A stretch of 64,000 nucleotides of DNA from assembly GCA_016125385.1 (NCBI GenBank), contig WGLV01000007.1, positions 44,241 through 108,240 on the forward strand, given 5' to 3'. The DNA comes from a bacterium (GTDB lineage: Bacteria > Hinthialibacterota > Hinthialibacteria > Hinthialibacterales > Hinthialibacteraceae). The number at the start of each line of letters is the position of its first letter. Position 1 is the first letter of the stretch. The notes below the pieces were generated by a model. The model was not told where the DNA came from and did not search any database. It was given only the letters and a program-made list of their open reading frames with translations. The translations under genes were made by a program, and so were the position numbers. Shown in pieces: positions 33,571-58,064 of the stretch.

Positions 33571-36500
33571 ATGAAGAAATGGATCGTAGCGTGTGCACTT
33601 CCGTTGCTGTTTGTGTGCGGTTTAGCCGTCCCGGTTCAATCGCAGAGTTGGGACGCGTCCGTTGACGCTCCGCCGGAGAGCGATCTGGTTCTCCCCTACA
33701 GCGGACCCGACGCCTGGTCGGGCAACATGACCGTCGTGATGCAGGCCACTGACCTCGGCGTAAGCGAGGCCACCGCGCCCTTGACGATTAATTTTATGGT
33801 GGGCGATCAGGTCGTCCCGTGGGTTCTGGGGCAGAACCCCGAAGGGTGGACGTTCTCGTCGAACGATTCGTCTGAATCTGGTTACTCCAGCGCCGTGGGC
33901 GCCGTCTCAACCGGCGGCATCCATGAATCGGCGATCCTTCGCGTTGTTGTGGTAGATGCGAATCCCGCCGATTCCGCGCTCCGCGTTCAGGGCTATCGCG
34001 ATGGCTCCAAGGTGTACGACAGCGCGGTGAACTTCACCAAGAGTGGAGTCAAACCCGTTTCGGTTTCCATTCAGGCGGCCACGCCGGTTAAAAATTACCA
34101 GTTCTCCTGGGCGCGCGCCGCGTTTAACTCCGCGTACGCACCGGGTAAAGGCCCTCAGACGCCGAACGGCCTCTCTGACACCGCGGGCTGGGGCTTCGTC
34201 TATAACGGCGACGTGCTCCCCACCACCCTGATTTCCAACGGCCGCACCGATTGGGAAGTACAGGAAGCGGGCAACCTTGCTTATGAATCCATCAGCTTTT
34301 CGATGGATGCGCAGGTTGGCGGTATCTGGTCGCGGCTCGACGATAACTCAGGGTCGCCCAATTCGGCTCAGGGTTACGTCGTCGCTAAAAACATCTATGA
34401 CAAGTGGACCGGCCGCATGACGCTGGTTATGCGCATCAAAGACCTCGGTACCAACAGCGAAAAATCCGTGGTCGATATCCGCACCAACGGAACCGATCCT
34501 AATGGCGTTCCTTACTGGACGCTGGGTCACGTGGCTGAGGGAACCGCCGGACCCGCCGGCTGGGAATTCGGCCAGACCAACGATGGCCGTAACGGAAACG
34601 GAACCAATAACGACACCCGCACGGGTGGTTTTGAAAAGTGGGTGATCCTCCGTATCGTTGTGATTGATGACGATCCCAACGATGGCATGTCGCTCGTTCA
34701 GGGGTGGCAGAACGGCGTAAAGGTCTACGAATCGGTCCGCACCGATGACATCGGCGTCGGCCAGTTCCATGAAATCGCTTTCCGCCGTACCTCGGGCGGC
34801 AGCCCGCAGAAACTCGCCTATGACTGGGTCGCGATGGACTTCGGTCACGCTTGGCCTCCAGGATACGGCCCCGAAACCCCGGCCGGTCGCTTCGACGCGG
34901 GTGGAAGCCAGTCCGCGACGCTCGATTCGAACCTGATTGACGGCGTCATCGGTCTCGACCGCATGGGCCTGATGAAAACCGTCAGTGATCCGTCGCTTCC
35001 GGTGGGCTTGAACAAGTTGTTTGAAGTCGACCGCAACGGCATGCCCGTCACGCTCAGCATGTTCTACCTGGGCTTCGACGCGATGCGCGATATCGAACCC
35101 GTCGGTAACAGCAAGCGTGAACTGACCGGTTTGATGGCTCTCGATAAATACGCGGGCTATCACACCGTTGACGTTCAGGGCCCCGGCGATATCGTTACCG
35201 GCCCGAGCGCGGGCGATCAGGACCGCGTCGCTCCCGGCATCGGCGTTAAAAACCCGGCGAACGGCCCCAAATTCGATTACTTCAACTCGATTGTGAAATA
35301 CAACGCGGCTCACCCCGGCAGTCAGGTCGGCATGGTTTACTTCCCGTTCTCCTTGGCCGATATCGCCCCTGCGGGAGTGAACTATGTGAAACTGGGCGGA
35401 AACGATGACGGTCTCGCCCGCGATATCGAGCCCGCGGTCGACTGGCGTCAGGCCACCAACGCCTTCCAGGGCGCCTATGTTCTCGACGTGTTCGGCGGCG
35501 TTCATTACCTTAACAATGGTGAACTGCTGAACGTCTTCCAGAACAATACGACCCCCAGCCATGTTGAAACCGTCGACCTGTACAACGGCGACCCCAGCGG
35601 CATCGTCTCCCGCGCGCTGAGCACGCAGGGTATCGACCTCTTCCAGCAGATCGTCGGCTTCAAGCCGGTTTATCTCGAAGATTACGCAGGGACGGATTCG
35701 CAGTACAAACACGCCGCCCCTTACTTCTCTTCGCTCCCCATCGCGCGCGACCTCGAAGTCATCAGCGATTTCGTCGATATGACGCCTGAGCTGGTCAACG
35801 ATTCGAAGACGCGTGAACAGTTGGCGGTCGCCAACGGCGTGACCGACAATGGAACCGATACGTCGGTTCTGTATGAACCCATCGCTATTCCTGACAGCCG
35901 CCTCGACGTCTCTTCACCGAACTACACCAAGCGCGTTCTGGTGACGAAGGGCTACGCCATTCTCGATGGCTATGGCGCCGTTCACTCGATGGTTGAAGAC
36001 AACGGCGTTCCGGTTCCCGCTCCGTGGGAAAACGCCGCGACGGGCCGTATGGATCCGTCCGTGAACGCTCCGTACTTCGGTTATGACCTGGCGGTTGATT
36101 TTGAAGTCTTCCCCAATGGCGCCGGCTACGCGCTGTTGACCCGCCTTGGCGATATCTATGTCGTCAACGCGGTTGGTACCACGATGGCTGATAACTTCGC
36201 CGACGTGAATATGTTCAAGAACATTCCGTTCTACGGCTTCGATCTGGCGCGCGACCTGACGCTGGTCGCGGGTTCGGACGGGAAGATTGTGGGTGCGTAC
36301 GTGCTTGACCGCTTCGGCTCCGTTACCAAGTACGGTTCGGTTCCCGCGATTCCGGGTGATTCGCTCTTCCTGCCCAATCCTCAGTCTTCATTGGCGAAGT
36401 GGGAGGCGATTGACCTCGAATTTTCACCTTATCAGTCCCATATCGACGTAACCCCCACGCCGACCCCGACGTTCACTCCGACACCGGTTCCGACCAACAC

Positions 36501-37269
36501 CCCGGTTCCGACGGTGACGGAAACGCCGACACCCGAACCCACCGCGACCCCTGAACCGGCCGCGACGGCGACCCCGGTTGTTGACGTAACGCCGACCGCG
36601 ACCCCGGTTCCGGCGGAAGCCACTCCGACTCCCGCCACGCCGGAAGCGACGGCGACGCCGGTGAGCGGTGATGCGACACCTACTCCGGCTCCGGCTGATG
36701 CGACCGCGACCCCGGTTCCTGCGGACAGCACCGCAACTCCAGTTCCGGCCGAAGGTACCCCCACCCCGGTCCCTGGAGGCGAAGCAACCGCCACTCCGAC
36801 TCCGGCTAGCGTCTCGCCGACGTCGACTCCAGTACCCGCCAGCACGGCGACTCCGGCTCCGACGGCTCAGCCTGTTCAGAATCTGACGATTGGCGTCACG
36901 GGCGGCCCGTACGCGGTGAACGACTCGTTTGATGCGGTTGTCGCCGTTGATAAAAACGCGTCCGGTCTTGCTGATTACAGCGTGACGGTTTCATACAACC
37001 CAGCGATTCTTCGCGCTGAATCGGTTTCTTCCGGTCCGTCATTTGGCTCCAACAACGCGGATATAATCAACTCGCAGGGCCAGGTGACCGCTCGCGCCAC
37101 ACAAATGACCGACACCACGGGTAACATTGTCCTCTTTTCGATTCGCTTTACGGTTTTGAATACGGGTGGAGGCAGCAGCACTCCCTTGAACACGACCATC
37201 AACTCGTTCCGTATCATCGGTGAAGTTGAAGTCGGAGGATCGGGAAGCGCGACGGTTCCGCTCCAGTAA
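33571..37269 (+). CDS. Giant secreted protein: duplicated lectin-like modules, propeller-like repeats, Pro/Thr stalk and cohesin-like domain
   Basis: About 1232 residues from ATG 33571 with a classic signal peptide (MKKWIVACALPLLFVCG). ATG 33478, in frame with its own GAGGGGG, would add 31 residues. Two homologous modules of about 200 residues come first; compare ESAILRVVVVDANP with KWVILRIVVIDDDP, and YAPGKGPQTPNG with WPPGYGPETPAG. Residues about 490-955 hold five or more degenerate repeats of the form LARDLE...GAYVLDVFGGVHYL, probably propeller blades. A stalk of TPTP/ATPVPA units (about 960-1102) leads to a cohesin-like C-terminal domain (VAVDKNASGLADYSVTVSYN). It has a strong promoter and its own terminator, and is probably abundant and surface-exposed. 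I know of no assigned function. Confidence 0.85.
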   Translation: MKKWIVACALPLLFVCGLAVPVQSQSWDASVDAPPESDLVLPYSGPDAWSGNMTVVMQATDLGVSEATAPLTINFMVGDQVVPWVLGQNPEGWTFSSNDSSESGYSSAVGAVSTGGIHESAILRVVVVDANPADSALRVQGYRDGSKVYDSAVNFTKSGVKPVSVSIQAATPVKNYQFSWARAAFNSAYAPGKGPQTPNGLSDTAGWGFVYNGDVLPTTLISNGRTDWEVQEAGNLAYESISFSMDAQVGGIWSRLDDNSGSPNSAQGYVVAKNIYDKWTGRMTLVMRIKDLGTNSEKSVVDIRTNGTDPNGVPYWTLGHVAEGTAGPAGWEFGQTNDGRNGNGTNNDTRTGGFEKWVILRIVVIDDDPNDGMSLVQGWQNGVKVYESVRTDDIGVGQFHEIAFRRTSGGSPQKLAYDWVAMDFGHAWPPGYGPETPAGRFDAGGSQSATLDSNLIDGVIGLDRMGLMKTVSDPSLPVGLNKLFEVDRNGMPVTLSMFYLGFDAMRDIEPVGNSKRELTGLMALDKYAGYHTVDVQGPGDIVTGPSAGDQDRVAPGIGVKNPANGPKFDYFNSIVKYNAAHPGSQVGMVYFPFSLADIAPAGVNYVKLGGNDDGLARDIEPAVDWRQATNAFQGAYVLDVFGGVHYLNNGELLNVFQNNTTPSHVETVDLYNGDPSGIVSRALSTQGIDLFQQIVGFKPVYLEDYAGTDSQYKHAAPYFSSLPIARDLEVISDFVDMTPELVNDSKTREQLAVANGVTDNGTDTSVLYEPIAIPDSRLDVSSPNYTKRVLVTKGYAILDGYGAVHSMVEDNGVPVPAPWENAATGRMDPSVNAPYFGYDLAVDFEVFPNGAGYALLTRLGDIYVVNAVGTTMADNFADVNMFKNIPFYGFDLARDLTLVAGSDGKIVGAYVLDRFGSVTKYGSVPAIPGDSLFLPNPQSSLAKWEAIDLEFSPYQSHIDVTPTPTPTFTPTPVPTNTPVPTVTETPTPEPTATPEPAATATPVVDVTPTATPVPAEATPTPATPEATATPVSGDATPTPAPADATATPVPADSTATPVPAEGTPTPVPGGEATATPTPASVSPTSTPVPASTATPAPTAQPVQNLTIGVTGGPYAVNDSFDAVVAVDKNASGLADYSVTVSYNPAILRAESVSSGPSFGSNNADIINSQGQVTARATQMTDTTGNIVLFSIRFTVLNTGGGSSTPLNTTINSFRIIGEVEVGGSGSATVPLQ
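36448..36876 (+). repeat. Pro/Thr-rich degenerate repeat encoding a stalk
   Basis: About 143 codons of Thr-Pro-x-Pro type repeats. In the middle the unit is about 10 residues (ATATPVPADS-like). Codons vary at third positions between units, so the repeat is kept at protein level rather than being freshly expanded. Confidence 0.8.
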
Positions 37270-37325
37270 AGAGACGATTCGCTCTGTTACGGCGATTCGT
37301 TTTACAAAAGTTTGGTTACTCAATT

Positions 37326-37357
37326 CAGGCCGGCGTTTTCGCCGGCCTGTTTGTTTT
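37326..37357 (+). terminator. Terminator of the giant secreted protein gene
   Basis: CAGGCCGGCG and CGCCGGCCTG form a perfect 10-bp stem with a TTTT loop, followed by TTTGTTTT. It lies 57 bases after the stop codon. The remaining bases to guaB (37358-37611) hold nothing I can name. Confidence 0.92.
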
Positions 37358-37611
37358 ATCCCGCAGGATAATCTACGATTGAATCGCGGTTGAATGGCGG
37401 ATTGACTCGTCGAATCGAGACGATGCGGCTCCTTGGGATTCTCGGCGGAAAATAGAGCGGTACAATGCAGGAGAGGCATCCATCGGCAATCGCATGCTAA
37501 AAGCGAACGATCGCGATGAAACAAGATCCGGAACGGCGGCGGGGTGATCGCCAGACGATATCTGGCTTGTATTCCGCCTGATGAACCATCCGATAGAGGA
37601 TAGATCGACCC

Positions 37612-39099
37612 ATGATGAAACGCGAAGAAAAATTCGTCTCCGTCTCGCTCACCTTTGATGATGTGCTGCTGCTGCCCGGCTATTCTGAAATCCTGCCCAA
37701 CACAGTTGACGTTTCAACCTTCTTCGCGAAAGACATCAACCTTTCCATTCCCCTGTGTTCATCCGCCATGGATACCGTCACTGAATCGCGCCTCGCCATC
37801 GCGATTGCGCAAGAGGGCGGCATGGGCGTCATCCACCGCAACATGACGATCAAGCACCAGGCGGCGGAGGTCGATCACGTCAAGCGTTCTGAAAGCGGAA
37901 TGATCGTCGATCCCTTCACTCTCGGGCCGGACGAGAGCATCGACCGCGCGCTGGAACTGATGGCGCGCTTCCGTATTTCTGGAATCCCGATCACCGAAAA
38001 AGGCCGGCTGGTGGGTATTCTCACCAATCGCGATCTGCGCTTTCTGAAAACCGACGAAGCGCATGAGATTCCGATCCGCGAGTTCATGACCAAAGATGAC
38101 CTGGTCACGGCGGCGGTCGGCACCACGCTGGAAGAAGCGCAGAAAATACTCCACCAGCATCGCATTGAAAAACTCCCCGTGGTCGATAGCGATGGCAATC
38201 TGAAGGGCTTGATTACCATTAAAGACATCGAAAAGAAACGCAAATTTCCCTACGCGGCCAAAGATTCGCTGGGGCGGTTGCGCGTCGCGGCGGCGATCGG
38301 CGTTAGTGAAGAAGACGCGGTCGAGCGCTCTGGAGCGCTGCTTCAGGCGGGCGTCGATGCGTTGGTGATCGATACGGCTCATGGCTATACCAAACGCGTG
38401 GGCGACGCCGTGGTCCGCGTGAAAAAAGAATATCCCAACGCGGTGGTGGTGGCGGGTAACGTCGCCACCTCCGACGGCGCCAAGTTCTTGTGTGACAAGG
38501 GAGTCGACGCGGTTAAGGTCGGCATGGGGCCGGGCTCGATCTGCACCACGCGCGTCATCAGCGGCGCGGGCGTGCCGCAGATTTCGGCGGTGTTCGACTG
38601 CGCTAACGCGATGGACGGCTACGACGCCAAACTCATCGCCGACGGCGGCGTCAAATATTCAGGCGATATCGTCAAGGCGCTGGGCGCGGGAGCCGACTCG
38701 GTCATGATCGGCAGCCTGTTCGCCGGAGCGGAAGAGTCGCCGGGTGAGACCATCATTTACGGCGGGCGCACCTTTAAGGTTTATCGAGGCATGGGTTCGG
38801 TCAGCGCCATGAAAGAAGGCAGCAAAGACCGCTACGGTCAGGGCGAGGTGATGGAAGAACAGAAACTCGTCCCTGAAGGAATCGAAGGCCGCGTGCCGTA
38901 TAAAGGCAATCTGTCCGGAATCGTGTTTCAACTGGTGGGCGGGCTGCGCGCCGGTATGGGCTATTGCGGATCGCGCACCATCCCCGATCTCCATAAAGAA
39001 GCCCGTTTCACTCAGATTACTCAAGCCAGCCTGCAAGAGAGCCACCCGCATGACGTCTTCATCACCAAAGAAGCGCCCAACTATCGTCTGGGGCAATAA
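37612..39099 (+). CDS. guaB: Inosine-5'-monophosphate dehydrogenase
   Basis: 495 residues, complete. It begins with [16 protein letters not shown] domains lie at about 95-215 ([18 protein letters not shown] and [20 protein letters not shown]). The catalytic loop GPGSICTTR contains the nucleophile Cys311. The flap carries [10 protein letters not shown], and EGRVPYKG lies near the end. It oxidises IMP to XMP, the committed step to GTP. ATGATG gives two possible starts one codon apart; GAGG lies about 12 bases upstream. Monocistronic with a strong terminator directly downstream. Confidence 0.98.
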
Positions 39100-39127
39100 A
39101 GGTTTCAACCACGAATGACGCAAACAA

Positions 39128-39155
39128 AAAAAGCCGGTCAAACGACCGGCTTTTT
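39128..39155. terminator. Bidirectional terminator between guaB and the lyase-like gene
   Basis: AAAAAGCCGGTC and GACCGGCTTTTT form a perfect 12-bp stem around AAAC. The stem itself contains A and U tracts, so it can serve both guaB and the convergent minus-strand operon. Confidence 0.92.
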
Positions 39156-39177
39156 GTTTTAAGAAGATGATTCAATG

Positions 39178-41019
39178 CTACGCGGTCTCAAGCGTGTCCC
39201 ATAACCGCCCCAGTTCGGAGGGCGTCGCCAGCGTCGAAACGCACAGCGTCTTGCCGGGAAGCGCCCAGGTTGATGTGATCCGCCCCGTGGCGTCGTCAAT
39301 AACGCATTTTGCGCTTTTGATGGGCGGTTTGTCTTCTCCCTTGGCGCCGATCTGAAGCGCGAATGCCAGCCAGGCGGCTTTCATCCTGCTGAAATCGACG
39401 GAGCGCGGCTCATTCTCGTTCAGCGCGACCGCGTCGACCCATGCCTGCCCGCCGCCCTGCCCGCCAAGCCATCGCCAGTCAGCGCCGCCGAAAACGCCTC
39501 CGAGGGGCGTGATGACGATATAGACGCCGTCTTCTTCGATGTGGATCGGGCCGTCCGGGGTCGAGTCGACTTTCGGCAGACTGATGTTTTGTATGCCGCC
39601 AAATTCAAATCGAAGCCGCAGATCTTTCGCCTCGATTGTCGCGTTCTTCACTTTATCGAGGCTGACATGCGTATCGCCGTAGTTGGTGGCGAATGCGACG
39701 TGACACAGCAAGTTGCCTTCATGCTGCTGAGATAGAGGAATCGCCGAGCAGTAGTCGTATCCATCATGCAGAAAGCGAACTTGCAGATATCGCGGCGCCG
39801 AGCGTTCGCCCCAATACGCCAGCAGAGGACGCCGCTGAACCCAGAAGTCGCCCAGGTTCACCGCGCCCAGGTTGTATTTGGGGTGGAGATACGTCGAGCC
39901 GGTTACGTTGTTATTTTTTCGCTTGCTGAAGGTCTCTACAACCGAGCGCGGCTGTTTGAATTCAATAAAGTACGAAATCAGCTCATCCGGAATGCTGAAA
40001 TCTAAACGGTACCGGTCGAGTCCCAGATCGATGGGGCGTGATAAATAAAATTTCCCCTGCAGCCCGGTCGCCGTTTCGAGCACCCTGAATATCTCGCTGT
40101 CATCGTCGATGAGGGTTCGATAACAGCGGCTGTGCGGTCCGGCCCATTGTCCGGTGGGGGGGTGAAAGCGGACGGCGGTGTGCTTCCAGTCCGTCGCGTT
40201 TAACTCATCCGCCAGTTTCACCGCTTCGGGATCGGTGAAGTGCATGCGCATGCGGGTGATTTCAGTCAGGGCGACCAGCGTATACGTGGGGCTGTTATAT
40301 TCGGTGAACGACCCTGTCTCCATGGTGGCGTCGTAAAAGGCGCGCAGCCGTTTTTTCGCGTATTGCAGCAGTTCGTCATCGCCGAGCAGCTGGCCCGCCA
40401 TCATGGTGACATAGGTCCCCATCACCGCGATGTTGGTATAACCCGGCCCCACGTTACGTTTTTTGATCGATCGCGCCGCGTTGAGCAGGGCGCCGCGCGT
40501 TTGTTCGCGCAGATCATCACCCAGCCGATCGGCGTGGTTCAGCAGACACGAAACCAGTTGAACGCCGCAGAAGTCGGCCCAGTTCCAGTCGGGCGGCGAC
40601 ATGACGTCGAGCGGTTCTTCCAGATACCACGACCAGATTCCATACGTTTTGTTGTCCGGGTTCTGATCTTGCAGGCTGATAATCTTGCGCAGAATGTCCT
40701 GAGCCCGTTCCAGATCGTCTTTCTTGCCCGAATCAAGCAGCGCGGCGGCGTAGGTGACTGATGAGCGCGTGTCATGGATGGGCGTTCCCGCTTTCAGCGT
40801 AGTGTGATATCCCACGCTGGATGAATGGCTCCGCAGCATGTGTTCTGCGGGGTCGTAGTTTCGTTCCGCCGCTTTCAGCGCGGCTTCGAGCGCTTCGCGG
40901 CGCCAGTCTTCCATCGGTTCGGCGGCGCGTGCGGTCAAGCCGGGGCTCATCGCGGCGCCGCATCCCAGCGCCAGCGAGGCGTTAAACGCGCGCCGGGTCA
41001 GCCCGTTCGTCATTTCCAT
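39178..41019 (-). CDS. Tat-exported polysaccharide lyase-like protein (alpha/alpha-toroid plus beta-sandwich)
   Basis: 613 residues. GGAGGT lies nine bases before the ATG. The N-terminus has a twin-arginine signal (LTRRAFNASLALGCGA), indicating export in folded form. The N-terminal 330 residues are helical, with YTNIAVMGTYVTMMAG and the catalytic-looking GSFTEYNSPTYT segment (Asn and Tyr as in heparinase/alginate-lyase-like toroids). The C-terminal half is beta-rich. I infer a lyase acting on uronate-containing polysaccharide, but the exact family cannot be fixed. It is the last gene of a three-gene operon, six bases after a GT-C membrane protein. Confidence 0.72.
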   Translation of the reverse strand: MEMTNGLTRRAFNASLALGCGAAMSPGLTARAAEPMEDWRREALEAALKAAERNYDPAEHMLRSHSSSVGYHTTLKAGTPIHDTRSSVTYAAALLDSGKKDDLERAQDILRKIISLQDQNPDNKTYGIWSWYLEEPLDVMSPPDWNWADFCGVQLVSCLLNHADRLGDDLREQTRGALLNAARSIKKRNVGPGYTNIAVMGTYVTMMAGQLLGDDELLQYAKKRLRAFYDATMETGSFTEYNSPTYTLVALTEITRMRMHFTDPEAVKLADELNATDWKHTAVRFHPPTGQWAGPHSRCYRTLIDDDSEIFRVLETATGLQGKFYLSRPIDLGLDRYRLDFSIPDELISYFIEFKQPRSVVETFSKRKNNNVTGSTYLHPKYNLGAVNLGDFWVQRRPLLAYWGERSAPRYLQVRFLHDGYDYCSAIPLSQQHEGNLLCHVAFATNYGDTHVSLDKVKNATIEAKDLRLRFEFGGIQNISLPKVDSTPDGPIHIEEDGVYIVITPLGGVFGGADWRWLGGQGGGQAWVDAVALNENEPRSVDFSRMKAAWLAFALQIGAKGEDKPPIKSAKCVIDDATGRITSTWALPGKTLCVSTLATPSELGRLWDTLETA

Positions 41020-41025
41020 CGGCTC

Positions 41026-42372
41026 TTACCTCCACCATTCACGATTGGGATTCAATACAATGTCGAGCCAGTTCGCCTTCAGCAGGCAGACGACGGTGAT
41101 GACGGCCAGCGCGATCCACTGAAAACGCTCGACGTTACGGACGCCGCGTCTCTTCGCGATCTGCTCGGCGGCGTACCACCAGACCGAGGCGCATCCAAAA
41201 AACAGCGCGGGCCAGATGATGCAGAAATTTCTCGACCAGAAGGTCGATTGTTTCGACATCAAAACGAGAAACGCGGCGCATGACGCCATCGTCAGCCCCA
41301 GCGTAACGAATGTTCCACGCCGTTCAAATTCTTTGAAAAAGCCCGTCCAGCCAAGGTACCCCAGGCCCAGCAGAGTCAGCCCGATCCCCGTCCACGCCAT
41401 CTGGTCGGCTACGCACCGGATAACGATGTAACCCATCTGAAGCCCCGGCGTGAACGAGTTGTAATCGGCGTGGCCCACCTGCATGTGCCAGATGCTCTGC
41501 AGCACGTCGCGCGAAAAGATGGCGAAATCATCGAGCCAGTAGGGCGTCAAGGTCCAGAATCCCGCGATCAGAAACGCGAACGATAACGCGGTTCCGCCCA
41601 GCCAGACTTCAAAGCGCGATTTCACCGAGCCGATCCCGCGCATCGCGTACCAGGCGTAACCCATCGGAACCAGAAAGATCACGCCCGCGTTGTATTTGAA
41701 ACCCACCGCGAAACCGCACAACAACCCCAGCGCCGCCAGTTGGGCGTACCACGCCCACAACGCGCGCGGCGCCGGGCGGGTGACGAACCACGCGGCCGCG
41801 GCGATAACCAGCAGATAAAACGTGCCGCAGGGCGTGTTCACCGCCGCGTAGGTCGATTCCAGACGGCTCGCGGATGAAAAGGCGAGAAAAAGCGAGGCCG
41901 CCAGCGCGGGCGCCAGCAGGTTTAACTTGCGGCCCAGATACGCGAGGATGAGAATCTGAACCGGAACCATCAGCATAAAATAAAAACGCACCTGGCGCAG
42001 AAAGGCTTTAAAAAAATCGGACTGCGGTCCGTCAAACAGAAACGTCTTGATCGGCGCGGGGGCGTCCTGCTTCAGTTTGTCGAGCGGAGAGATGTCTTGA
42101 AGTTGATTGCCCTGCGTGACTTCGCGGCTGATCTTCGCCAGCGCGAGAATATCGGCGCCGAGGCAATAATACAGCCCGCCTGTGGGGTATTGATAAAAAT
42201 GGGGGCTGAAGTCGCCGGTATAAAGCATCTGCAGCGAGCGCCCCACCGTGTGGACTTCATCCACATGCCCGTCTTCGAGCCGGGGCAGTCGCAACAGAAC
42301 GGCTAGAGCGATCGCCGCCGCGAACGCCAGCGGCCAGCGGGCTTTCCATAGTAGAGACGCGATCGCGTTCAT
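41026..42372 (-). CDS. GT-C type membrane glycosyltransferase (GT39/ArnT-like)
   Basis: About 448 residues from ATG 42372, preceded by GGGGAGAG. An ATG at 42396 is an in-frame alternative without as good a site. There are ten to twelve membrane helices. The first periplasmic loop has the GT-C signature EDGHVDEVHTVGRSLQML, then GDFSPHFYQYPTGG, as in Pmt/ArnT-type enzymes using polyprenyl-phosphate sugars. It lies between a second GT-C-like gene upstream and a Tat-exported lyase-like gene six bases downstream, so a joint role in a periplasmic or surface glycan is likely. Confidence 0.82.
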   Translation of the reverse strand: MNAIASLLWKARWPLAFAAAIALAVLLRLPRLEDGHVDEVHTVGRSLQMLYTGDFSPHFYQYPTGGLYYCLGADILALAKISREVTQGNQLQDISPLDKLKQDAPAPIKTFLFDGPQSDFFKAFLRQVRFYFMLMVPVQILILAYLGRKLNLLAPALAASLFLAFSSASRLESTYAAVNTPCGTFYLLVIAAAAWFVTRPAPRALWAWYAQLAALGLLCGFAVGFKYNAGVIFLVPMGYAWYAMRGIGSVKSRFEVWLGGTALSFAFLIAGFWTLTPYWLDDFAIFSRDVLQSIWHMQVGHADYNSFTPGLQMGYIVIRCVADQMAWTGIGLTLLGLGYLGWTGFFKEFERRGTFVTLGLTMASCAAFLVLMSKQSTFWSRNFCIIWPALFFGCASVWWYAAEQIAKRRGVRNVERFQWIALAVITVVCLLKANWLDIVLNPNREWWR

Positions 42373-42412
42373 AAACAGTCTCTCCCCATTTACCATTCAG
42401 TTGAAAAGAAGA

Positions 42413-43987: not shown

Positions 43988-44279
43988 GGAACCGCGTGAT
44001 AATCCGTCTTCGGTCAGGTTGTGGCGCGATCGGGGTTTCTGAAGCGGTTCAGTCCGTCGCGCATCGGCTTCATCTTACCGAAAAAACCTGAAAACCTTGA
44101 GGAGAACGGGCGAGAATTTTTGCGGTTTGCGTTTTGCCCCATTCTCTCATACTATCTCTTACAGGCAGGGTATGCCGCCGCCCGTGCGCGTCTTTCGCAA
44201 TCCCTCGGGCGCGTATATCGGGAATTCGTGTTTTTTTACCGGCGGGGCTATCGGCCGCTGAGGCTGAGCCGTTATATGG

Positions 44280-46498: not shown

Positions 46499-46516
46499 AA
46501 TCGCTTTGTTCGTCTT

Positions 46517-46828: not shown

Positions 46829-46929
46829 ATGTTCTTGCGCGAGTTTCCTTTTTTCTATGCAGGACGCCGCGTCCGGCGGCGATAGAAATCACGGAAACCA
46901 TCCCCAAACAGAAAGGCGCGTGATATAAC

Positions 46930-47127
46930 GTGGTAGAAGTCGAAGTCCGCGACGACGAGGATATTCAGACTGCGCTAAAACGCTTTAAGCGGAAATGCAT
47001 TAAGGAAGCGATTCCTCAAGACATCCGCAAAAACGCTTTTTATGAAAAACCCAGCGTGAAAAAGCGTAAAAAGCACCTTAAAGCGGTTAAACGTCTTAAG
47101 AAAAACCGCATGAAACAGAGAGGATAA
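46930..47127 (+). CDS. rpsU: 30S ribosomal protein S21
   Basis: 65 residues, typical of S21. It has the conserved VRDDEDIQTALKRFKRKC followed by a basic Lys/Arg-rich tail (KPSVKKRKKHLKAVKRLKK). S21 helps mRNA recognition near the anti-Shine-Dalgarno region of 16S rRNA. It starts with GTG, with AGAAAGG about 14 bases upstream. Monocistronic, with its own promoter and terminator. Confidence 0.95.
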   Translation: MVEVEVRDDEDIQTALKRFKRKCIKEAIPQDIRKNAFYEKPSVKKRKKHLKAVKRLKKNRMKQRG

Positions 47128-47199
47128 AACTCGATGGAGCGGCGTTCATGCCAGATCGCGTGAACGGCGTCGCTCAATCGGGTACTCGCGCACCATCGG

Positions 47200-47228
47200 C
47201 CGGGAAGGTTTTCACCTTCCCGGTTTTT
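47200..47228 (+). terminator. rpsU terminator
   Basis: CCGGGAAGG and CCTTCCCGG form a perfect 9-bp stem with a TTTTCA loop, followed directly by five Ts. It lies 72 bases after the rpsU stop. Confidence 0.93.
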
Positions 47229-47256
47229 GTTTGGGTGCAATCAAATGTTGCAGTAT

Positions 47257-48987: not shown

Positions 48988-49168
48988 CCGAAGAACCTTT
49001 GAGTAAGGGGATAGGGAGTCAGCGTGATGGGTGACGAGAAAAAGATGATATCCACCCTTTCAAGGGATGGAAGCAGCCGGAATTGATTATTTACTTTTTT
49101 AAACAAAAATTGTGGTTGAAGAACCGCGTGGAAAGACGATTTCGGCGGAAAAGTAACGCTCCTGTCAT

Positions 49169-49200
49169 AAAAACGGGGCGAAGAAAATTCTTCGCCCCGT
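49169..49200 (-). terminator. Terminator of the C45 acyltransferase gene
   Basis: ACGGGGCGAAGAA and TTCTTCGCCCCGT form a 13-bp inverted repeat with a minimal loop. On the minus strand it is followed by TTTTATG. It lies 38 bases after the stop codon. Confidence 0.88.
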
Positions 49201-49237
49201 GTGAAACCGGATCGATTCGCTGACTTGTGAGAAGTGA

Positions 49238-50512: not shown

Positions 50513-50561
50513 GATCTTGTTCTCCCGAATGTGACTTGAATCGCGATGAGATTCAGAACGA

Positions 50562-50588
50562 TAAAGGGGTCAGGCGAACCTGACCCCT
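50562..50588 (-). terminator. Terminator of the beta-helix protein gene
   Basis: AGGGGTCAGG and CCTGACCCCT form a perfect 10-bp stem with a CGAA/TTCG tetraloop, followed by TTTAT on the minus strand. It lies 32 bases after the stop codon. Confidence 0.85.
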
Positions 50589-50619
50589 CGATTGTACGCT
50601 TGCTTTGGCGCTCTCTCAA

Positions 50620-52080
50620 TCAAAAAGAAAACAAAGACCAGTCTTCCACGCCGGTCCCCTGCAGGCCCAGCGCGCCGATGTAGGTTCCGCCCACGCCCGC
50701 CGTGGCCACCGGCGAACCCACTTTCAGGTGAAAGTCGCCGCCGACGGCGTCGACGTACATCGGGTCGACGTTGAGTACGTTCGTTTTGGTCAGCACCCCG
50801 TCATCGCCGAGGTATTGGGCGTCGGAGGCGAACAGGTTGCAGTTCGTCGCGTTGATCTCCGCGACGACGCTCGCCATGTTGTCGATGCAGTCGTAATCGA
50901 CGACGTTGGTGTTGGTGAGATTGAGCGTGATGACGGCGACCGGGTTTTGGGTGAGTTGAATGCCCACGCTTTCCTGCGCGTTCACCAGGTCGCAGTGGTC
51001 GAAGGTGGCGGTGACTTCACGCTGGTCGTCAGGGTTGAGATACAGGTTCGCCGAGACGTTATTGCTCAGAATGCAGCGGGTGACCGTGGTGGTTCCGCCG
51101 CGCAGCATGATGCCGTAAGAACCGGTATTCAGCCCGTTATTGGTGAAGATGCTGTCGACGATGGTGACGGCGGGCGCTCCAGCGGGTTCGTCCGGCTCAA
51201 TGCTGCCGGTTTCCAGTTCAAAACCGTATTCGGTATTGGCGTCGAAGGTGCATGCGTTAATGGTGAGGTTGTCGTCCGAACAACTGATTCCTGTGCCGTT
51301 CGCCCTGAACGTGCATTCGATGGCGCCGACTTCGCCGTCGTCCATTTCGATGCCGGTTCCGTTGCTCTGGAAGGTGCATCCAATCAGACGAGCGTCGGGG
51401 TTGGGGGCGGGTAAGCCCAGCGCCAGCAGAAAATTGTTGATGGCGAAGCCGAATGGCGAGTTGGTGAAGGTCGTGTTCGTGACAGTCAGATTGGTGCCAA
51501 GGTTCGGGACGCCCATCTGGAGCGAAATCGGATCGAGGTTCGCCAGCAGAATACCCAGCAGATCGCCGCCGGTTTCGCCGCCGGGGCCGATAATGGTGCA
51601 ATCGCTGATCGTGACGTCGGGCGAGATGATCGTCATCGCCGAGTTGATTGGCGCGGCTTCAAGGCCGTTCGGCTCGGTATCGTTCTGTTGAAAGGTGATG
51701 CCTTCGATCGTCACGCCGCTGCCATTGATGAAACAGCCGAGTTTGTCGTTGACGCCGAAGCTCGCGCCCAGCGCCTGCACGCGGTTTTTATTGTTGGCGG
51801 CTACGACTTTCACGTCCGCGCCCTCCGCCGCTTTCAGCGTCACGTGGTTTTTAAACGTGGGAGGCTGTGAGTTGAGCGCGCCGAAGTTGATGTCTTCGTT
51901 ATAAGTTCCCGACGAGACGACGATGATGTCAAAATCGGTCGAGGCGTCGATGGCCGCCTGAATGGTGGTGAAATCGCCGCCGCCGCCCTGCTTGACGGTG
52001 AGCGTCGCTGAAAACGCAAAAGGAGTGATGAGTGAAACCATCAGAAAACTACGAAAGACCATACGTTTGAAGGAAATCAT
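50620..52080 (-). CDS. Secreted right-handed parallel beta-helix protein
   Basis: 486 residues. GGAGGT lies six bases before the ATG. A signal peptide is followed by DFTTIQAAIDAS, the usual entry motif of pectate-lyase-like helices. Repeated rungs follow (GVTIEGITFQ, DVTISDCTII, GAIECTFRANGTGI, NLTINACTFDAN). Near the end PMYVDAVGGDFHLKVGSPV is typical of choice-of-anchor or polysaccharide-binding right-handed-helix proteins. It has no recognisable lyase active site, so binding is as likely as catalysis. Monocistronic. Confidence 0.87.
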   Translation of the reverse strand: MISFKRMVFRSFLMVSLITPFAFSATLTVKQGGGGDFTTIQAAIDASTDFDIIVVSSGTYNEDINFGALNSQPPTFKNHVTLKAAEGADVKVVAANNKNRVQALGASFGVNDKLGCFINGSGVTIEGITFQQNDTEPNGLEAAPINSAMTIISPDVTISDCTIIGPGGETGGDLLGILLANLDPISLQMGVPNLGTNLTVTNTTFTNSPFGFAINNFLLALGLPAPNPDARLIGCTFQSNGTGIEMDDGEVGAIECTFRANGTGISCSDDNLTINACTFDANTEYGFELETGSIEPDEPAGAPAVTIVDSIFTNNGLNTGSYGIMLRGGTTTVTRCILSNNVSANLYLNPDDQREVTATFDHCDLVNAQESVGIQLTQNPVAVITLNLTNTNVVDYDCIDNMASVVAEINATNCNLFASDAQYLGDDGVLTKTNVLNVDPMYVDAVGGDFHLKVGSPVATAGVGGTYIGALGLQGTGVEDWSLFSF

Positions 52081-52220
52081 ATCTACCTCCGAATCATGAA
52101 ATCAGAAAATTTATACACAGATGGTTTTACTATATCATGATTTTGAATTTATCCAGATTGGTTTTTAATGGAAATTCATATAAGCAGGCGACTTGCCTTC
52201 CCTGAGAATCCCCGCCGGGG

Positions 52221-52229
52221 TGATATACT
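52221..52229 (+). promoter_or_regulatory. Possible extended -10 element for mutS2
   Basis: TGATATACT matches the TGnTATAAT extended -10 with one mismatch, and no good -35 is needed for such promoters. It lies 142 bases upstream of the chosen mutS2 start. Confidence 0.4.
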
Positions 52230-52370
52230 GTCCGTTTGTAAACGTCGTTCTTGACTTAACCTGAAAACGGACGTTTCAAACTCCGTTCCCCGAAAACCGT
52301 CATTCGCCCCGCCGTGAAGCAATTCGGAGGTTCGGTTCAAAGAACGAGTACATTTCACCAGAACAAAAAC

Positions 52371-54806
52371 ATGATGGATCAGCACGCCTTACGGGTTTTG
52401 GAATTCGATAAAATCAGGGAGATGCTGCGGCATCTCACCTCGTCGTCTTTGGGGCGCGAGGCGGTGGAAGAATTGCATCCCATGACCTACCCGCAAGCGA
52501 TCCGCGACGCGCTCGACGAGGTCACCGAAATGACGCGCCTTTATCAGGCGCGGCAGGAGCCGCCCCTCAACGGCCTGTACGACGTGGCGGAACCCCTGAA
52601 ACGCTCGCGCATCGGCGGCGCCGTGCTTGATCCGGCTGAGATTCTTGTGATCGGCGAGACGGTCACGGCGGCGCGGCGCATTCAGGAAGCGATGCGGCGC
52701 GTCACCGTCGACGTTCCCCGCATGCGCGTGTACGCGGGGCGGCTGATTCCCCATCCCGAGATCGAACAGGCGCTGGATCGCGTCTTCGACGAACAGAAAA
52801 ACATCCGCGACGGCGCTTCGCCCGCGTTGAGCCGGGTGCGAAAGACCATCCGCCAGCATCGCGCCGACCTGACCCGTAAGCTGGAACGGCTGATGCGCTC
52901 GGCGTTCAAGGAATATCTCGCCGAGCCTTATTACACTCAGCGTGAAGAACGCTACGTGCTGCCCGTCGACGCGCGCTATCAGAGCAAGGTTCCGGGCATC
53001 ATTCACGACCGCTCGGCGACGGGAGCGACGGTGTTCATTGAGCCGCTCAGCATTATCGACGACGGCAACCGGCTGCTCGACCTGCACCGCGAAGAACAGA
53101 TGGAGATTCGCCGCATCCTGCGTGAACTGACCGCGCTGATCGCCGAACACTCTTTCGATCTCGAACAGAATCTCGAACTGTTCCGCCATCTCGATTTCGT
53201 TTCGGCCAAGGCGCGCCTGAGTGAAAAACTGGGGCTGCACCCGCCGGTGATTCTCGATGACGGCGTGATGATGCTGATCGAAGCGCGCCATCCTCTGCTG
53301 CTGGCCCGCGCGGGCCGCGACGGCGTGGTGCCGCTCGATTTGAAACTGCCTGAAGGCGTGCGCGGCGTGGTGGTGACCGGCCCCAACACCGGCGGCAAGA
53401 CGGTGGTTCTCAAAACCATCGGACTCATCGCCATGATGGCGCAATCGGGGCTGCACGTCTCCGCCGCGCCGGGGACGGAACTGCCGGTGTTTCAATCCAT
53501 CGGGGCCGACATCGGCGACGAACAGAGCCTCGAACAGAGCCTGTCGACTTTTTCTTCCCACATGGCCAACATCCGCCGCGTACTCGAGATGGCCAACGAG
53601 CGATCGCTGGTGCTGCTCGACGAACTCGGCTCGGGCACCGACCCTGAAGAAGGCGGCGCGCTGGCCTGTTCGATCATCGAACAGGTCTATCAGCAGGGCG
53701 CGTTCTGCGTGGTGACCACGCACCTTCAGGATGTGAAGGTCTTCGCCCATCAGACCGAGGGCCTGCGCAACGGCGCGATGGAATTCGACATGCAGCGCCT
53801 GCAACCGACCTTCCGCTTCATGCTGGGCTTGCCGGGGCGCAGCAACGCCATCGAAATCGCCGACCGGCTGGGCTTGCCGCCGCTGGTGATCGAACGCGCC
53901 CGTCTCGCCCAGGCCGCGCGCGGCGAGTCTCCCGAAGAACTGCTGGCGCGGCTCAGCGAAGAGGTACAGCACGCCCGCGAGCGAACCGAACTCGCCGAGC
54001 TGGAACGCGCCCGCGCCGAAGCGCTGCGTCAGGAAAGCGAAACCCGCATGGAAGGCGCCAAACGCGAGGCGCGCCACGTGGTTGAAAAAAGCGAGCGTAA
54101 GGCGCAAAACCTGCTTCAGGAACTCGAACGCCGCCTCAAAGATCTCGAGAAGCTCGAACGCGATTTCCAGAAACAGTGGAAGGACAAACTCGATTCGCTG
54201 CTGAAAGAATCCGAACAGACCGCTCCGCCCGAATCGACGTTACAGAACCTGCGCAAAAGCATCGCCCAGGCGCGCAGCCAGGTTTCATCGAAAAAGATGG
54301 TCGAACCCGCCCCGCGATATACGCGCAAGCCGTGGCGGTGGGAGCAGCTCGCGCCGGGAGTCCGCGTGCGTCTCGCGGGGTTGACCGAGATGGCGAAAGT
54401 GATCCGCGCCGACGCCGGGCGAAAACTGGTCGAGGTCAGCGTCAATTCAATGACGTTGCGGGTGAAATCAGACCAGATTCTCTCCGTGCATGGCGTGATT
54501 CCCGAACCCGCGCCCGAGTATTCCACCACAGTGCGGGTCGAGCGGCCCGATCAGATTTCAAACTCGATCGATATTCACGGCATGACGGTGGAAGAGATGA
54601 TCCCGGTGGTACAACAGTATATCGACCGCGCCTTTCGCGGCGGGCTCTCGACCGCCTTTATCGTACATGGCCACGGCACGGGGACATTACGCCGCGAGGT
54701 GCGCCGCCTGCTGACCGGGCATCCGGTGGTGCGCAATTTCAAAAACGGCGATCCCTTCGAGGGCGGCCAGGGCGTCACCGTCGTCAACCTCAATACGCGA
54801 ATGTAG
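52371..54806 (+). CDS. mutS2: Endonuclease MutS2
   Basis: About 811 residues from ATG 52371 (a second ATG follows directly), where family similarity begins (HALRVLEFDKIREMLRHL). No strong ribosome binding site is visible. The clamp/lever region is followed by the MutS ATPase with Walker A GPNTGGKT at 337-344 and LVLLDELGSGTDPEEGGAL. A coiled coil (about 520-640) and a C-terminal Smr nuclease domain (about 730-811) with IDIHGMT and HGHGTG follow. MutS2 restrains recombination and rescues collided ribosomes in some bacteria. Full length with no breaks. Confidence 0.96.
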   Translation: MMDQHALRVLEFDKIREMLRHLTSSSLGREAVEELHPMTYPQAIRDALDEVTEMTRLYQARQEPPLNGLYDVAEPLKRSRIGGAVLDPAEILVIGETVTAARRIQEAMRRVTVDVPRMRVYAGRLIPHPEIEQALDRVFDEQKNIRDGASPALSRVRKTIRQHRADLTRKLERLMRSAFKEYLAEPYYTQREERYVLPVDARYQSKVPGIIHDRSATGATVFIEPLSIIDDGNRLLDLHREEQMEIRRILRELTALIAEHSFDLEQNLELFRHLDFVSAKARLSEKLGLHPPVILDDGVMMLIEARHPLLLARAGRDGVVPLDLKLPEGVRGVVVTGPNTGGKTVVLKTIGLIAMMAQSGLHVSAAPGTELPVFQSIGADIGDEQSLEQSLSTFSSHMANIRRVLEMANERSLVLLDELGSGTDPEEGGALACSIIEQVYQQGAFCVVTTHLQDVKVFAHQTEGLRNGAMEFDMQRLQPTFRFMLGLPGRSNAIEIADRLGLPPLVIERARLAQAARGESPEELLARLSEEVQHARERTELAELERARAEALRQESETRMEGAKREARHVVEKSERKAQNLLQELERRLKDLEKLERDFQKQWKDKLDSLLKESEQTAPPESTLQNLRKSIAQARSQVSSKKMVEPAPRYTRKPWRWEQLAPGVRVRLAGLTEMAKVIRADAGRKLVEVSVNSMTLRVKSDQILSVHGVIPEPAPEYSTTVRVERPDQISNSIDIHGMTVEEMIPVVQQYIDRAFRGGLSTAFIVHGHGTGTLRREVRRLLTGHPVVRNFKNGDPFEGGQGVTVVNLNTRM

Positions 54807-54854
54807 TTGCGATTCGAATAAGCGAAAAAATTCCAACCCAACGCGGATTGTTTC

Positions 54855-55676
54855 TTATTCCGCTTCTCTGACCAGCCGCAGGCCGAGGATGGAGAGCTGA
54901 CCGGGCGGCGGCGACTGTACGTTGCGGCTCGCGCAGCGGCAATCCCAGCCGAAATTGTAGTAACTGCCGCCGCGACGGACGTGAACGCCGCCTTCAGCGG
55001 GGCCGGTGGGGCCGGTTTGCGCTTCGGCGGGGTAAGGCGCGTAGACGTCTGAACACCACTCGCTGACGTTGCCCGCCATATCATACAGGCCCCATGCGTT
55101 GGGCTTTTTCATTCCAGCGGGATGCGTGGACCAATCCGAGACGGTGTCGTACCACGCATAGGGCGCCATATCGGTGTAATACAGGTCATCGCCCCAGAAA
55201 TACCGCGTGCTGGTTCCCGCGCGGCAGGCGTATTCCCACTCCGCTTCCGTCGGCAGGCGATAGACGCCCGCGCCGAGTTGATTCATTTTTTCGATGAACG
55301 CCTGCGCGAGCTCCCAGGTCACCTGCTCGACCGGCAGGGCGGGGTCGCCCTGAAATTTGGATGGGTTGCTCTTGATCAGCGCGGTCCATTGACCCTGCGT
55401 CACTTCGGTCGCGCTCATATAAAAGGGGCGCGTCAGGGTGACCTTGTGTTGAGGGCCTTCGATATCATCGCGGTCTTTTTCCGACGGGGGGCTGCCCATC
55501 AGAAAAGTTCCCGGCTCGATGCGGATAAACTCCATCGTGACATCGCCAGGCAGGGTCAGCGTCAGGCGTCCATCGCTCTGGCTGACGCTCGCCTTGGGCG
55601 CGTCGCTGGACGAACACCCCTGAATCAACATCGCCGCTGCGATGGCGAGAATCGCTATGATGCGTTTGGCGGGCAT
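54855..55676 (-). CDS. SUMF1/FGE-sulfatase-domain lipoprotein
   Basis: 273 residues. A signal peptide ends in a lipobox (LIQGC). The SUMF1 fold follows: FIRIEPGTFLMGSPPSEKDR, then PFYMSATEVTQGQW, LPTEAEWEYACRAGT, WGLYDMAGNVSEWCSD and VHVRRGGSY. In formylglycine-generating enzyme the last motif contains a redox Cys pair. Here only CRC remains after a shortened loop, so true FGE activity is unlikely. Such lipoproteins often act in binding or are linked to serine/threonine kinases. It is convergent with mutS2, with the MBL gene upstream on the same strand. Confidence 0.88.
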   Translation of the reverse strand: MPAKRIIAILAIAAAMLIQGCSSSDAPKASVSQSDGRLTLTLPGDVTMEFIRIEPGTFLMGSPPSEKDRDDIEGPQHKVTLTRPFYMSATEVTQGQWTALIKSNPSKFQGDPALPVEQVTWELAQAFIEKMNQLGAGVYRLPTEAEWEYACRAGTSTRYFWGDDLYYTDMAPYAWYDTVSDWSTHPAGMKKPNAWGLYDMAGNVSEWCSDVYAPYPAEAQTGPTGPAEGGVHVRRGGSYYNFGWDCRCASRNVQSPPPGQLSILGLRLVREAE

Positions 55677-55714
55677 ACGCCCTCCCCCTCAATATGAATT
55701 GAATTTTGATGATT

Positions 55715-56338
55715 TCATATCACGAAGTAATTGTCATGCCCGGGAATCACTACGTCGCCGACCTTGGCGATCTGGTCTATCGCGCGGCGCGCGGCGTATT
55801 CGTCCTCCGCGCGGCCGTCCGGGTCGCGGGCGTCGAAATGGTCGAAGGTCAACACGGCGTCGCCCGCCACCACTACCATGCCGTCGCGCGTCTCAAACAG
55901 AAACGAGGCCGAACCGTGGGTATGCCCCGGCGTCTGGATCACTTCAACGCCTTCGGGAGAGTGCTCTTCGATTGGATCGATTGAATTGAGCCAGTGCGCG
56001 ATTGTTTCGAGCGAATGTGAATTTTTTTGCGCTCGATGGATTTCGGTTCTTGACATCAGGCGGGTTGCGTTTTCAAAATATCCCAGACCCCGCGCATGAC
56101 TGGCGTGAAAGTGGGTCAACAGCACCGTATCGATATCCTCAACCTGAAGCCCCGCGCGCCGGTCAAGCAGCGTCCGCGCAGACTCCAGCGATTCAAACCC
56201 CGGGTCGACCAGCATCCGCCGCCGATCGGTTTCGATCAGCGTGATCGTGCATAGCTGTGGCCTCTGGGGCGTTTCCTCACTCCAGAAACTGTTTTGACTC
56301 AGGCAGCCGATCTGAATGATTCGCCAGTGTGGAACCAT
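55715..56338 (-). CDS. Metallo-beta-lactamase-fold hydrolase (MBLAC1-like) with altered metal motif
   Basis: 207 residues, a minimal MBL fold. Motif II reads THFHASH (His76, His78, Ser80, His81) where H-x-H-x-D-H is usual. His139 in TPGHTHGS, Asp160 in GDAVL and His201 in PGHDNY fill the remaining metal-ligand positions. Loss of the aspartate would weaken the second metal site. These enzymes hydrolyse thioesters, RNA or lactones; function here is unknown. It lies 38 bases before the SUMF1-lipoprotein gene and could be co-transcribed. Confidence 0.82.
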   Translation of the reverse strand: MVPHWRIIQIGCLSQNSFWSEETPQRPQLCTITLIETDRRRMLVDPGFESLESARTLLDRRAGLQVEDIDTVLLTHFHASHARGLGYFENATRLMSRTEIHRAQKNSHSLETIAHWLNSIDPIEEHSPEGVEVIQTPGHTHGSASFLFETRDGMVVVAGDAVLTFDHFDARDPDGRAEDEYAARRAIDQIAKVGDVVIPGHDNYFVI

Positions 56339-56422
56339 GATGGCTCATTGTAGCCCGCCGTATGATTGAGGTGAATCACCACGATTTTTTACAGGGTTTT
56401 TTATTTTTAATCGGTTTATATA

Positions 56423-56452
56423 TTGACAAACAACCGTGCTTGATGACTTAAT
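56423..56452 (+). promoter_or_regulatory. Promoter of the second propeller/Pro-Thr protein
   Basis: A perfect TTGACA (56423-56428), an 18-base spacer, and CTTAAT (56447-56452). AT-rich DNA upstream (TTTTTTATTTTTAA) could act as an UP element. AGGAGG at 56473-56479 then serves ATG 56487. Confidence 0.68.
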
Positions 56453-56486
56453 GTTTATCCTTTTTATCAAAACAGGAGGCTTTTTT

Positions 56487-58064
56487 ATGAAAAAGGTTTG
56501 TAACGTTTTGTTGTTGCTTACCTTCGTTGGGTTTGGAGCCTTTTCGGTTAGCGCCCAGGGTGAAGGCGGTGATGCGAATCTGTCGCTGCTTTTGAACGAC
56601 GGAAGCGTCGTCTCCTCTGGCGGCGAAGTGACCGCTCCCGGCGAAACCGTCAAAGACGCATTGCGCGTTCTCCCCTTCAACGGCGGCAGCCTGATCGCCA
56701 CCGCGTACGGCGAGCTCTATGGCGAGGGCGTTGACGTCCCGTTTGAGGGCGTGAATTACTCGCTGCCCATTATGAAGGACTTCGTCATGACGCCGAGTGG
56801 AACCGGCGGGTATTTTCTCGACCTCTACGGCGGCGTCCACCCCGTCGGCGACGCGAATTACATGGGCGCTCAGTTTTACGGATCGCCCTTCAGCCCGGCC
56901 GCTATCGCGCGCGCTTTTGAGCCCGCTTTCGATGATAACGGCGGCGTTATCGGCTACTACGTTCTCAATAAACTGGGCCAGATCGATTCGTTCGGCGCCG
57001 CGCCCCAGTTGAAAGGCGTCAAAACCAAAGACGCGGTCTCGGTCAAAATTTCACCAAACGGCGACGGGTACGCCATCGTCACCGCTCAGGGCGAAATCTT
57101 CACCTATGGCAACCTGCCCGCTTTCCAGCTGGAAGCGAAACTCGATAAGAAAAACCGCATCGTCGACTTTTCATTCACCGCCTCCGGACTGGGGCTGTAT
57201 CTGGTGGATGTAAAGGGGACGGTTCACGTGACCGGCGACGCAACGCCGGTCGATTTCAATGTCACGCTCAGCAAGAATCAGCAGGTGGTGGGCGTGTTCA
57301 GCGGCGTAAGCGGCGGCAGCGTCTCGAACCTGCCGGAAGACCTCTTCCCGGTTCCGACCGCCACGCCGATGCCGACGACGACTCCCGCGCCGCCGACCCC
57401 GACCGCGGCGCCAGTGACGCCGACTCCGGCCCCGACGTCCACACCGGCTCCAACTTCGACGCCCGCTCCGACTTCGACTCCGGCCCCGACCGTAACCCCG
57501 GCGCCGCCGACCTCGACTCCGGTTCCGACCTCGACCCCCGCGCCGACTTCGACCCCGGATCCGAACGCGCCGCCGACTGAAACTCCGACCATGACGCCGG
57601 TTCCGCCGACGGCGACGCCCGTACCTCCAACCAGTACGCCGGTTCCTCCGACGAGTACGCCGGTTCCGCCGACCGTGACGCCGATCGTTCCGACCCCGAC
57701 CCCCGGCGTCAGCATCGTGCCTCCCGGCATCGACAGCCGCATGCTCGGCACGTGGAACGGCGTGGCGAACAAGATCAACGACGGCTCTCAGCGCAATATC
57801 CGCCTGCGCATCGCGGTGGAAAGCAACAAGGTCATCGTCGAAGACCTGAGCAGCCCGGCGTATCTGAAAACCAAAAAACTGACGATGGGCCTTGTCGGAA
57901 CCGATGGCATTACGTATACCCAGGCCGGTCTTCAGACCGAATCGTTAACGCTGACGCTTCTCACTCAGGGTATTGGGATCACGGGCGGCTACGTCACCAC
58001 CGATGGAACCTTCCCCCCGATTCCCACGTCATGGGGCATCACCATCGATTTCAGCAAGCAGTAA
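56487..58064 (+). CDS. Secreted protein with propeller-like repeats, Pro/Thr stalk and small C-terminal beta domain
   Basis: About 525 residues. AGGAGG lies seven bases before ATG 56487. A signal peptide (MKKVCNVLLLLTFVGFGAFS) leads to five repeats between about residues 60 and 275. Their shared core is G-x-G-Y-x-[LI]-[DTN]-x3-G-x-[IV]-x2-x-G, for example GTGGYFLDLYGGVHPVGD and GDGYAIVTAQGEIFTYG. The same repeat occurs in the protein at 33571-37269. A Pro/Thr stalk (about 287-406, APTSTP and VPPTSTP units) and a beta-rich domain of about 110 residues (MLGTWNGVANKI) follow. A gene for an outer-membrane barrel starts 55 bases later. It is probably displayed on the cell surface; no known function. 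Confidence 0.85.
   Translation: MKKVCNVLLLLTFVGFGAFSVSAQGEGGDANLSLLLNDGSVVSSGGEVTAPGETVKDALRVLPFNGGSLIATAYGELYGEGVDVPFEGVNYSLPIMKDFVMTPSGTGGYFLDLYGGVHPVGDANYMGAQFYGSPFSPAAIARAFEPAFDDNGGVIGYYVLNKLGQIDSFGAAPQLKGVKTKDAVSVKISPNGDGYAIVTAQGEIFTYGNLPAFQLEAKLDKKNRIVDFSFTASGLGLYLVDVKGTVHVTGDATPVDFNVTLSKNQQVVGVFSGVSGGSVSNLPEDLFPVPTATPMPTTTPAPPTPTAAPVTPTPAPTSTPAPTSTPAPTSTPAPTVTPAPPTSTPVPTSTPAPTSTPDPNAPPTETPTMTPVPPTATPVPPTSTPVPPTSTPVPPTVTPIVPTPTPGVSIVPPGIDSRMLGTWNGVANKINDGSQRNIRLRIAVESNKVIVEDLSSPAYLKTKKLTMGLVGTDGITYTQAGLQTESLTLTLLTQGIGITGGYVTTDGTFPPIPTSWGITIDFSKQ
57345..57710 (+). repeat. Second Pro/Thr-rich stalk repeat
   Basis: About 120 codons built from 18-base APTSTP and 21-base PVPPTST units. Synonymous codons differ between successive units (GCC CCG ACG, GCT CCA ACT, GCT CCG ACT), showing selection on the peptide. 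Confidence 0.8.

Follow-up and report, generated by a model that had tools for sequence, protein, structure and literature searches.

A stalked propeller gene next to a predicted outer membrane barrel gene: a candidate surface-display pair in Hinthialibacterota

Results

The window analyzed here, a 64,000-nucleotide (nt) stretch of contig WGLV01000007.1 (assembly GCA_016125385.1, positions 44,241 to 108,240) from a member of Hinthialibacterota, encodes two secreted proteins built around the same repeat: P0001, the larger, of 1232 amino acids (aa), and P0002, the smaller, of 525 aa. The P0002 gene is followed directly by a gene for a predicted outer membrane beta-barrel (Table 1). Both open reading frames (ORFs) lie where a preliminary description of this DNA had placed them, 19.2 kb apart. 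P0002 consists of a signal peptide, propeller repeats, a Pro/Thr stalk (defined as at least 55% Pro plus Thr over 40 residues) and an eight-stranded beta domain that matched no Pfam family. P0001 consists of a signal peptide, two ConA-like sandwiches, propeller repeats, a stalk and a cohesin. The signal peptides, the Thr/Pro stalks and the cohesin of the larger protein had all been proposed in that description and were borne out: both N-termini were hydrophobic and typical of signal peptides, by eye and by hydropathy scan, and the cohesin, the sole Pfam match in the two proteins, scored above its curated cut-off (25.4 versus 24.1 bits). The two ConA-like domains had been missed. By fold comparison they matched galectins, GH131, alginate lyases and sialidase lectin domains, and "ConA-like" is our own label for the fold of these structures; the matches to sialidase and clostridial lectin domains were taken as a common fold only.

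Table 1. Positions of the features within the window
Feature	Position	Strand	Basis
Sigma-70-like promoter, TTGCCA-18-TATAAT	33374..33403	+	11/12 matches; shuffles mean 0.7
P0001, secreted multidomain protein, 1232 aa	33571..37269	+	ORF
P0001 ConA-like beta-sandwich 1, residues 25-204	33643..34182	+	predicted fold
P0001 ConA-like beta-sandwich 2, residues 205-444	34183..34902	+	predicted fold
P0001 propeller, six blades with long insertions and closing AIDLEF strand, residues 445-945	34903..36405	+	sequence, profile matches
P0001 Pro/Thr stalk	36412..36882	+	residues 948-1030 at 55% threshold; P/T-rich by eye to ~1100
P0001 cohesin domain, residues 1105-1206	36883..37188	+	Pfam PF00963, E 1.8e-5
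guaB (IMP dehydrogenase), conserved neighbor of P0001 orthologues, outside the system	37612..39099	+	
P0002, secreted propeller-stalk protein, 525 aa	56487..58064	+	ORF
P0002 predicted six-bladed beta-propeller, residues 29-277	56571..57317	+	predicted
P0002 Pro/Thr stalk, residues 278-419	57318..57743	+	residues 277-419 at 55% P+T threshold
P0002 C-terminal eight-stranded beta domain, residues 420-525	57744..58061	+	structure model
FadL/PorV-like outer membrane beta-barrel, predicted partner of P0002	58120..59211	+	Pfam, NCBIfam, gene pairing

The barrel matched Toluene_X (E 6.9e-10) and OMP_b-brl (E 2.4e-7), both above the Pfam cut-off. Against the OMPP1/FadL/TodX family PF03349 it scored 38.4 bits (cut-off 29.7); among five relatives scanned, only one passed this cut-off, by a margin of 0.1 bit. 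A sequence search of the PDB with the barrel returned nothing useful. The 55 nt between the P0002 stop and the barrel start include a Shine-Dalgarno-like AAGGAG, and neither a promoter nor a terminator was matched there.

Fourteen genomes of the phylum were searched for this barrel family, with the window barrel alone and then with an 11-row profile. Fourteen strong members were found in nine of the genomes (E ≤1.6e-89), together with three weak ones (8e-10 to 9e-9). Inspection of all 14 strong neighborhoods placed 12 of the barrels downstream of a propeller gene on the same strand, with gaps of 3 to 74 nt in 11 pairs and 391 nt in one. The pairing recurs in 9 of the 14 genomes. Stalks were present in 10 of the 12 barrel-paired propellers versus 16 of 77 unpaired ones. 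In a tree made by a quick method from 58 of 79 regions (those of at least 420 residues were dropped, and one gene was entered twice), the paired propellers occupied four groups, at least two of them set apart by supported branches. A single origin of the barrel-linked propellers was rejected: four changes are required on the tree, two of them imposed by supported branches. Barrels of other types were 26 to 31% identical to the window barrel. Given the four tree groups and this divergence, the pair is either old or was built more than once. The surface display proposed in the preliminary description gains independent but indirect support from an outer membrane barrel gene that follows P0002 and 11 other propeller genes. 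P0001 has no adjoining barrel; its neighbor is guaB.

The two proteins had been said to share a repeat with a defined core. The repeat is present in both, but the literal core is rare: a relaxed form of the pattern matched twice in P0002 and not in P0001, and AxDhEhxP...GYYVLDxxGxVHxxGDA is a better blade consensus. Counting strands and hairpins, we arrive at six units in each protein. A 26-blade alignment was built from P0001, P0002 and five other proteins of the genome, and a chance test was made with the 20 blades from outside the window, the six window blades being omitted. This outside-only profile scored 67.1 bits for P0001 and 61.9 bits for the P0002 propeller region; among 2000 shuffles of each, 1202 and 1465 gave any score, and the best reached 9.0 and 12.3, respectively. 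The shared repeat exceeds chance.

The predicted fold of the repeat in both proteins is a six-bladed beta-propeller. The repeat had been held to be no standard WD40, NHL or Kelch motif, and no match to the Pfam models of these families was found up to E 1 in P0001, P0002 or ten relatives, a range in which HMMER filters drop most matches above ~0.1. Nor does any Pfam or NCBIfam model cover it, and a known propeller family was sought by sequence in Pfam, NCBIfam and the PDB with none found; the best PDB profile match, to a Roadblock/LC7 protein (0.0072 over 20 positions), was judged to be chance. YWTD (LDL-receptor class B) propellers share the six-bladed fold predicted here, but identity to this repeat was 9%, this repeat is bacterial with a different blade motif, and Pfam Ldl_recept_b was unmatched in P0001 and P0002 up to E 1. 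In the papers searched, the repeat strings GYVLDGWGG, LDGWGGVH, LDGYGGVH and VLDGFGG were not found, nor was anything joining a beta-propeller with Acidimicrobiia, repeat and cell wall. Judged by titles, papers on propellers with cohesin or YWTD yielded nothing on this repeat, and the paper found with both Omnitrophota and beta-propeller concerns, by its title and abstract, another superfamily.

Each of the 14 genomes searched from the phylum gave blade-profile matches at E ≤0.001. Many paralogues had been anticipated, and at least 89 distinct propeller ORFs were retrieved, 3 to 12 per genome, both figures being lower bounds among the matches listed; one genome has a 702-aa ORF in two identical copies, perhaps through duplication in the assembly. 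The further expectation that propellers always come with Pro/Thr stalks failed, as 26 of the 89 ORFs have one (27 to 24 ORFs at thresholds of 45 to 60%). Stalks were found in all six P0002 orthologues (P0003-P0008), in just 2 of 21 P0001 orthologues and in none of 19 Actinomycetota-labelled ORFs, some of which are truncated by contig ends. Thus, the stalk is an addition and not a family-defining mark.

Among 20 loci from genome contigs, 5 were labelled Omnitrophota, and the other 15 bore the name of Actinomycetota or of one of its classes; two of the 15 are filed as Bifidobacterium breve assemblies, a label that we consider untrustworthy. NCBI taxonomy recognizes a phylum Candidatus Hinthialibacterota, and P0005, one of the P0002 orthologues, bears the name Candidatus Hinthialibacter antarcticus; further contigs with close relatives are filed under Candidatus Omnitrophota, which makes Hinthialibacterota a probable phylum name for the window. 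Repeats of the form DIARDLVLLPDGTGGYVLDGYGGLHPFG occur in Actinomycetota and in similar secreted proteins, of which many are wall hydrolases; this is the same blade, detected by a profile refined on Hinthialibacterota at E values down to 5e-52. Those examined showed no stalk and no barrel, and carried CHAP, M23, GH18 and other enzyme fusions. Of 18 distant homologues (P0009-P0025, P0047), 11 had a domain or name pointing to a wall hydrolase, a glycosidase or a protease, among them CHAP, M23, C39/papain-like, GH18 and amidase (CHAP, GH18 and Amidase_2 are what we take the listed Pfam numbers to denote).

Mobile origins were considered and rejected: P0002 was unmatched in viral contigs (seven pattern matches, none confirmed) and in phage records, and a piece of P0047 was unmatched in plasmids. 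At loci L101, L107, L124, L145, L146, L154, L164 and L177, a hydropathy scan placed the propeller C-terminal to several membrane spans, and some of these proteins resemble PMT-type glycosyltransferases by eye. At G000:C2:128270-130108 (L206) and in four other genomes, a compact propeller gene of 412 to 435 aa lies 3 to 24 nt after a frame of 187 to 277 aa; the G000 member of these frames, the only one scanned, has a hydrophobic N-terminus and matched the Pfam tail-tube family Phage_T4_gp19 (E 1.5e-11).

The propeller gene represented by P0001 or a relative adjoins guaB in this genome and seven others, and no barrel of the P0002-partner family follows the guaB-adjoining propeller gene. The whole genome has two cohesin matches, one in P0001 and one in a stalked propeller protein on contig C62 that also carries dockerins and whose gene is followed by a barrel gene. 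P0001 and the propeller-barrel pair may therefore meet via cohesin and dockerin. P0001 shares with cellulosomal scaffoldins a cohesin on a Pro/Thr linker; scaffoldins have cohesin arrays, whereas P0001 has one cohesin beside a propeller and ConA-like domains. At G000:C52:15383-18272 (L192), a stalked propeller gene lies 61 nt after a 292-aa gene with a borderline dockerin match (21.0 and 24.9 bits in two scans; cut-off 22.9). At G003:C47:41164-43319 (L130), the cohesin and the stalked propeller are in separate frames of 629 and 607 aa, and the gene looks split.

Each gene had been credited with its own strong promoter. A promoter match lies before the P0001 gene (Table 1), but a plus-strand scan found none before the P0002 gene, where just a TTGACA is visible. 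A PMT_2-type mannosyltransferase-like gene lies at 30890-32719 (minus strand), near the gene for the Thr-rich stalk protein P0001, and a link between it and O-glycosylation of the stalk is conceivable. A lipoprotein-like protein with an FGE-sulfatase domain is encoded at 54855-55676 (minus strand), near the P0002 gene.

Discussion

The gene arrangement points to a pair in which a propeller-stalk protein gene directly precedes the gene for a predicted outer membrane barrel that anchors or exports its product, a reading to which we give an even chance. By such a mechanism, the propeller would be exported by Sec, engage its own FadL/PorV-like barrel and be held on the outer face of the cell, the Pro/Thr stalk keeping the binding propeller at a distance from the remainder of the chain. 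In P0001, this propeller would be combined with two lectin-like domains of ConA fold, and docking would run through the cohesin to a dockerin protein encoded in the same genome, not through a neighboring barrel. What the 12 linked proteins have in common is the propeller and, by eye, not the C-terminus, from which we infer that the propeller is the part engaged by the barrel, with anchoring or export as the probable outcome.

In type IX secretion, a FadL-family outer membrane barrel binds and anchors, or shuttles, a secreted surface protein that is often encoded nearby, as with SprB/SprF and PG1035/PorP (PMC9143113; PMC12618676), and the pair described here resembles these. In those Bacteroidota pairs, as for 12 of 14 barrels here, the gene for a secreted protein adjoins that for a FadL-type barrel; type IX partners have a C-terminal sorting tail, whereas the common part of the partners here is the propeller. 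Por_Secre_tail had no match in this genome, with a control that matched once, below the cut-off. SprA (TIGR04189) exceeded its cut-off in none of the 14 genomes, the control genomes being silent too; matches of about 50 residues or less occurred in four, including this one. PF14349 matched nowhere, controls included. A tentative proposal, and in our view a rather unlikely one, is a two-gene display system that does without type IX secretion: the FadL/PorV-like barrel would recognize the six-bladed propeller itself, not a C-terminal sorting tail, and would carry or hold stalked propellers on the Hinthialibacterota surface.

Several observations weigh against anchoring or export by the barrel. 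Of the 89 retrieved propellers, 77 have no such barrel alongside, 5 of the 14 genomes contain propellers without any strong barrel, 2 of the 14 strong barrels (G011:C2 and G013:C37) have no adjoining propeller, and a small ORF may intervene in the 391-nt pair. By eye, the 12 barrel-linked proteins have no common C-terminal tail, unlike type IX substrates, so that recognition, if it occurs, would need to act on the propeller. The best NCBIfam match of the barrel, to the PorV/PorQ family NF033709 (PorV_fam), reached 42.9 bits against a cut-off of 90; three relatives scored 56.0, 50.4 and 39.1. Relatives in Actinomycetota, where no outer membrane is expected, have this repeat with no stalk, so the barrel is not intrinsic to propeller function. 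The fold itself is modelled unevenly. The predicted local distance difference test (pLDDT) for the P0002 propeller was 63 to 88 by tens of residues, with 54 and 37 at residues 121-140. The P0001 propeller model was poor over its first half and fair for the second half only. Foldseek ranked WD40-type propellers first, with template modelling scores to the target of at most 0.48 among the best 50 matches listed; the count of six blades therefore rests on strands and VIA-align.

Possible, if rather doubtful, is an uptake pair, in which the propeller binds an external ligand and passes it to an importing FadL-like barrel, with no anchoring or export of the propeller, much as SusD works with SusC. 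The barrel is over the cut-off of a Pfam transporter family, the propeller-barrel gene order is conserved, and the two ConA-like domains of P0001 suggest glycan binding. However, the best NCBIfam match is to PorV/PorQ, though below cut-off, and the stalk could keep the propeller far from the pore. Less probable still is a general extracellular binding domain, a widely shared module of no single system to which stalk, cohesin and barrel are lineage-specific additions. Such a module is favored by the 11 distant relatives, out of 18, that bear enzyme domains or names and by the fusion of other propellers to multi-membrane-spanning proteins, but it leaves unexplained why 12 of 14 barrels follow a propeller gene in several divergent lineages. 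A cellulosome-like assembly, with stalked propellers as scaffolds joined by cohesin and dockerin and the barrels as incidental neighbors, is improbable: both cohesin matches of the genome are in stalked propeller proteins, one also with dockerins, and cohesin and dockerin matches occur in all 14 genomes, but there is a single cohesin per protein here and none in P0002, and barrels sit beside propellers too often to be chance neighbors.

Collectively, these data describe a propeller family that occurs in two phyla, being present in all 14 genomes searched from one of them, and for which there is no Pfam or NCBIfam model. If the barrel anchors or exports the propeller, the pairing would be a new way of surface display, and dedicated FadL-type shuttles would extend beyond type IX secretion. 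The pair would then offer a handle on how a little-studied phylum builds its surface.
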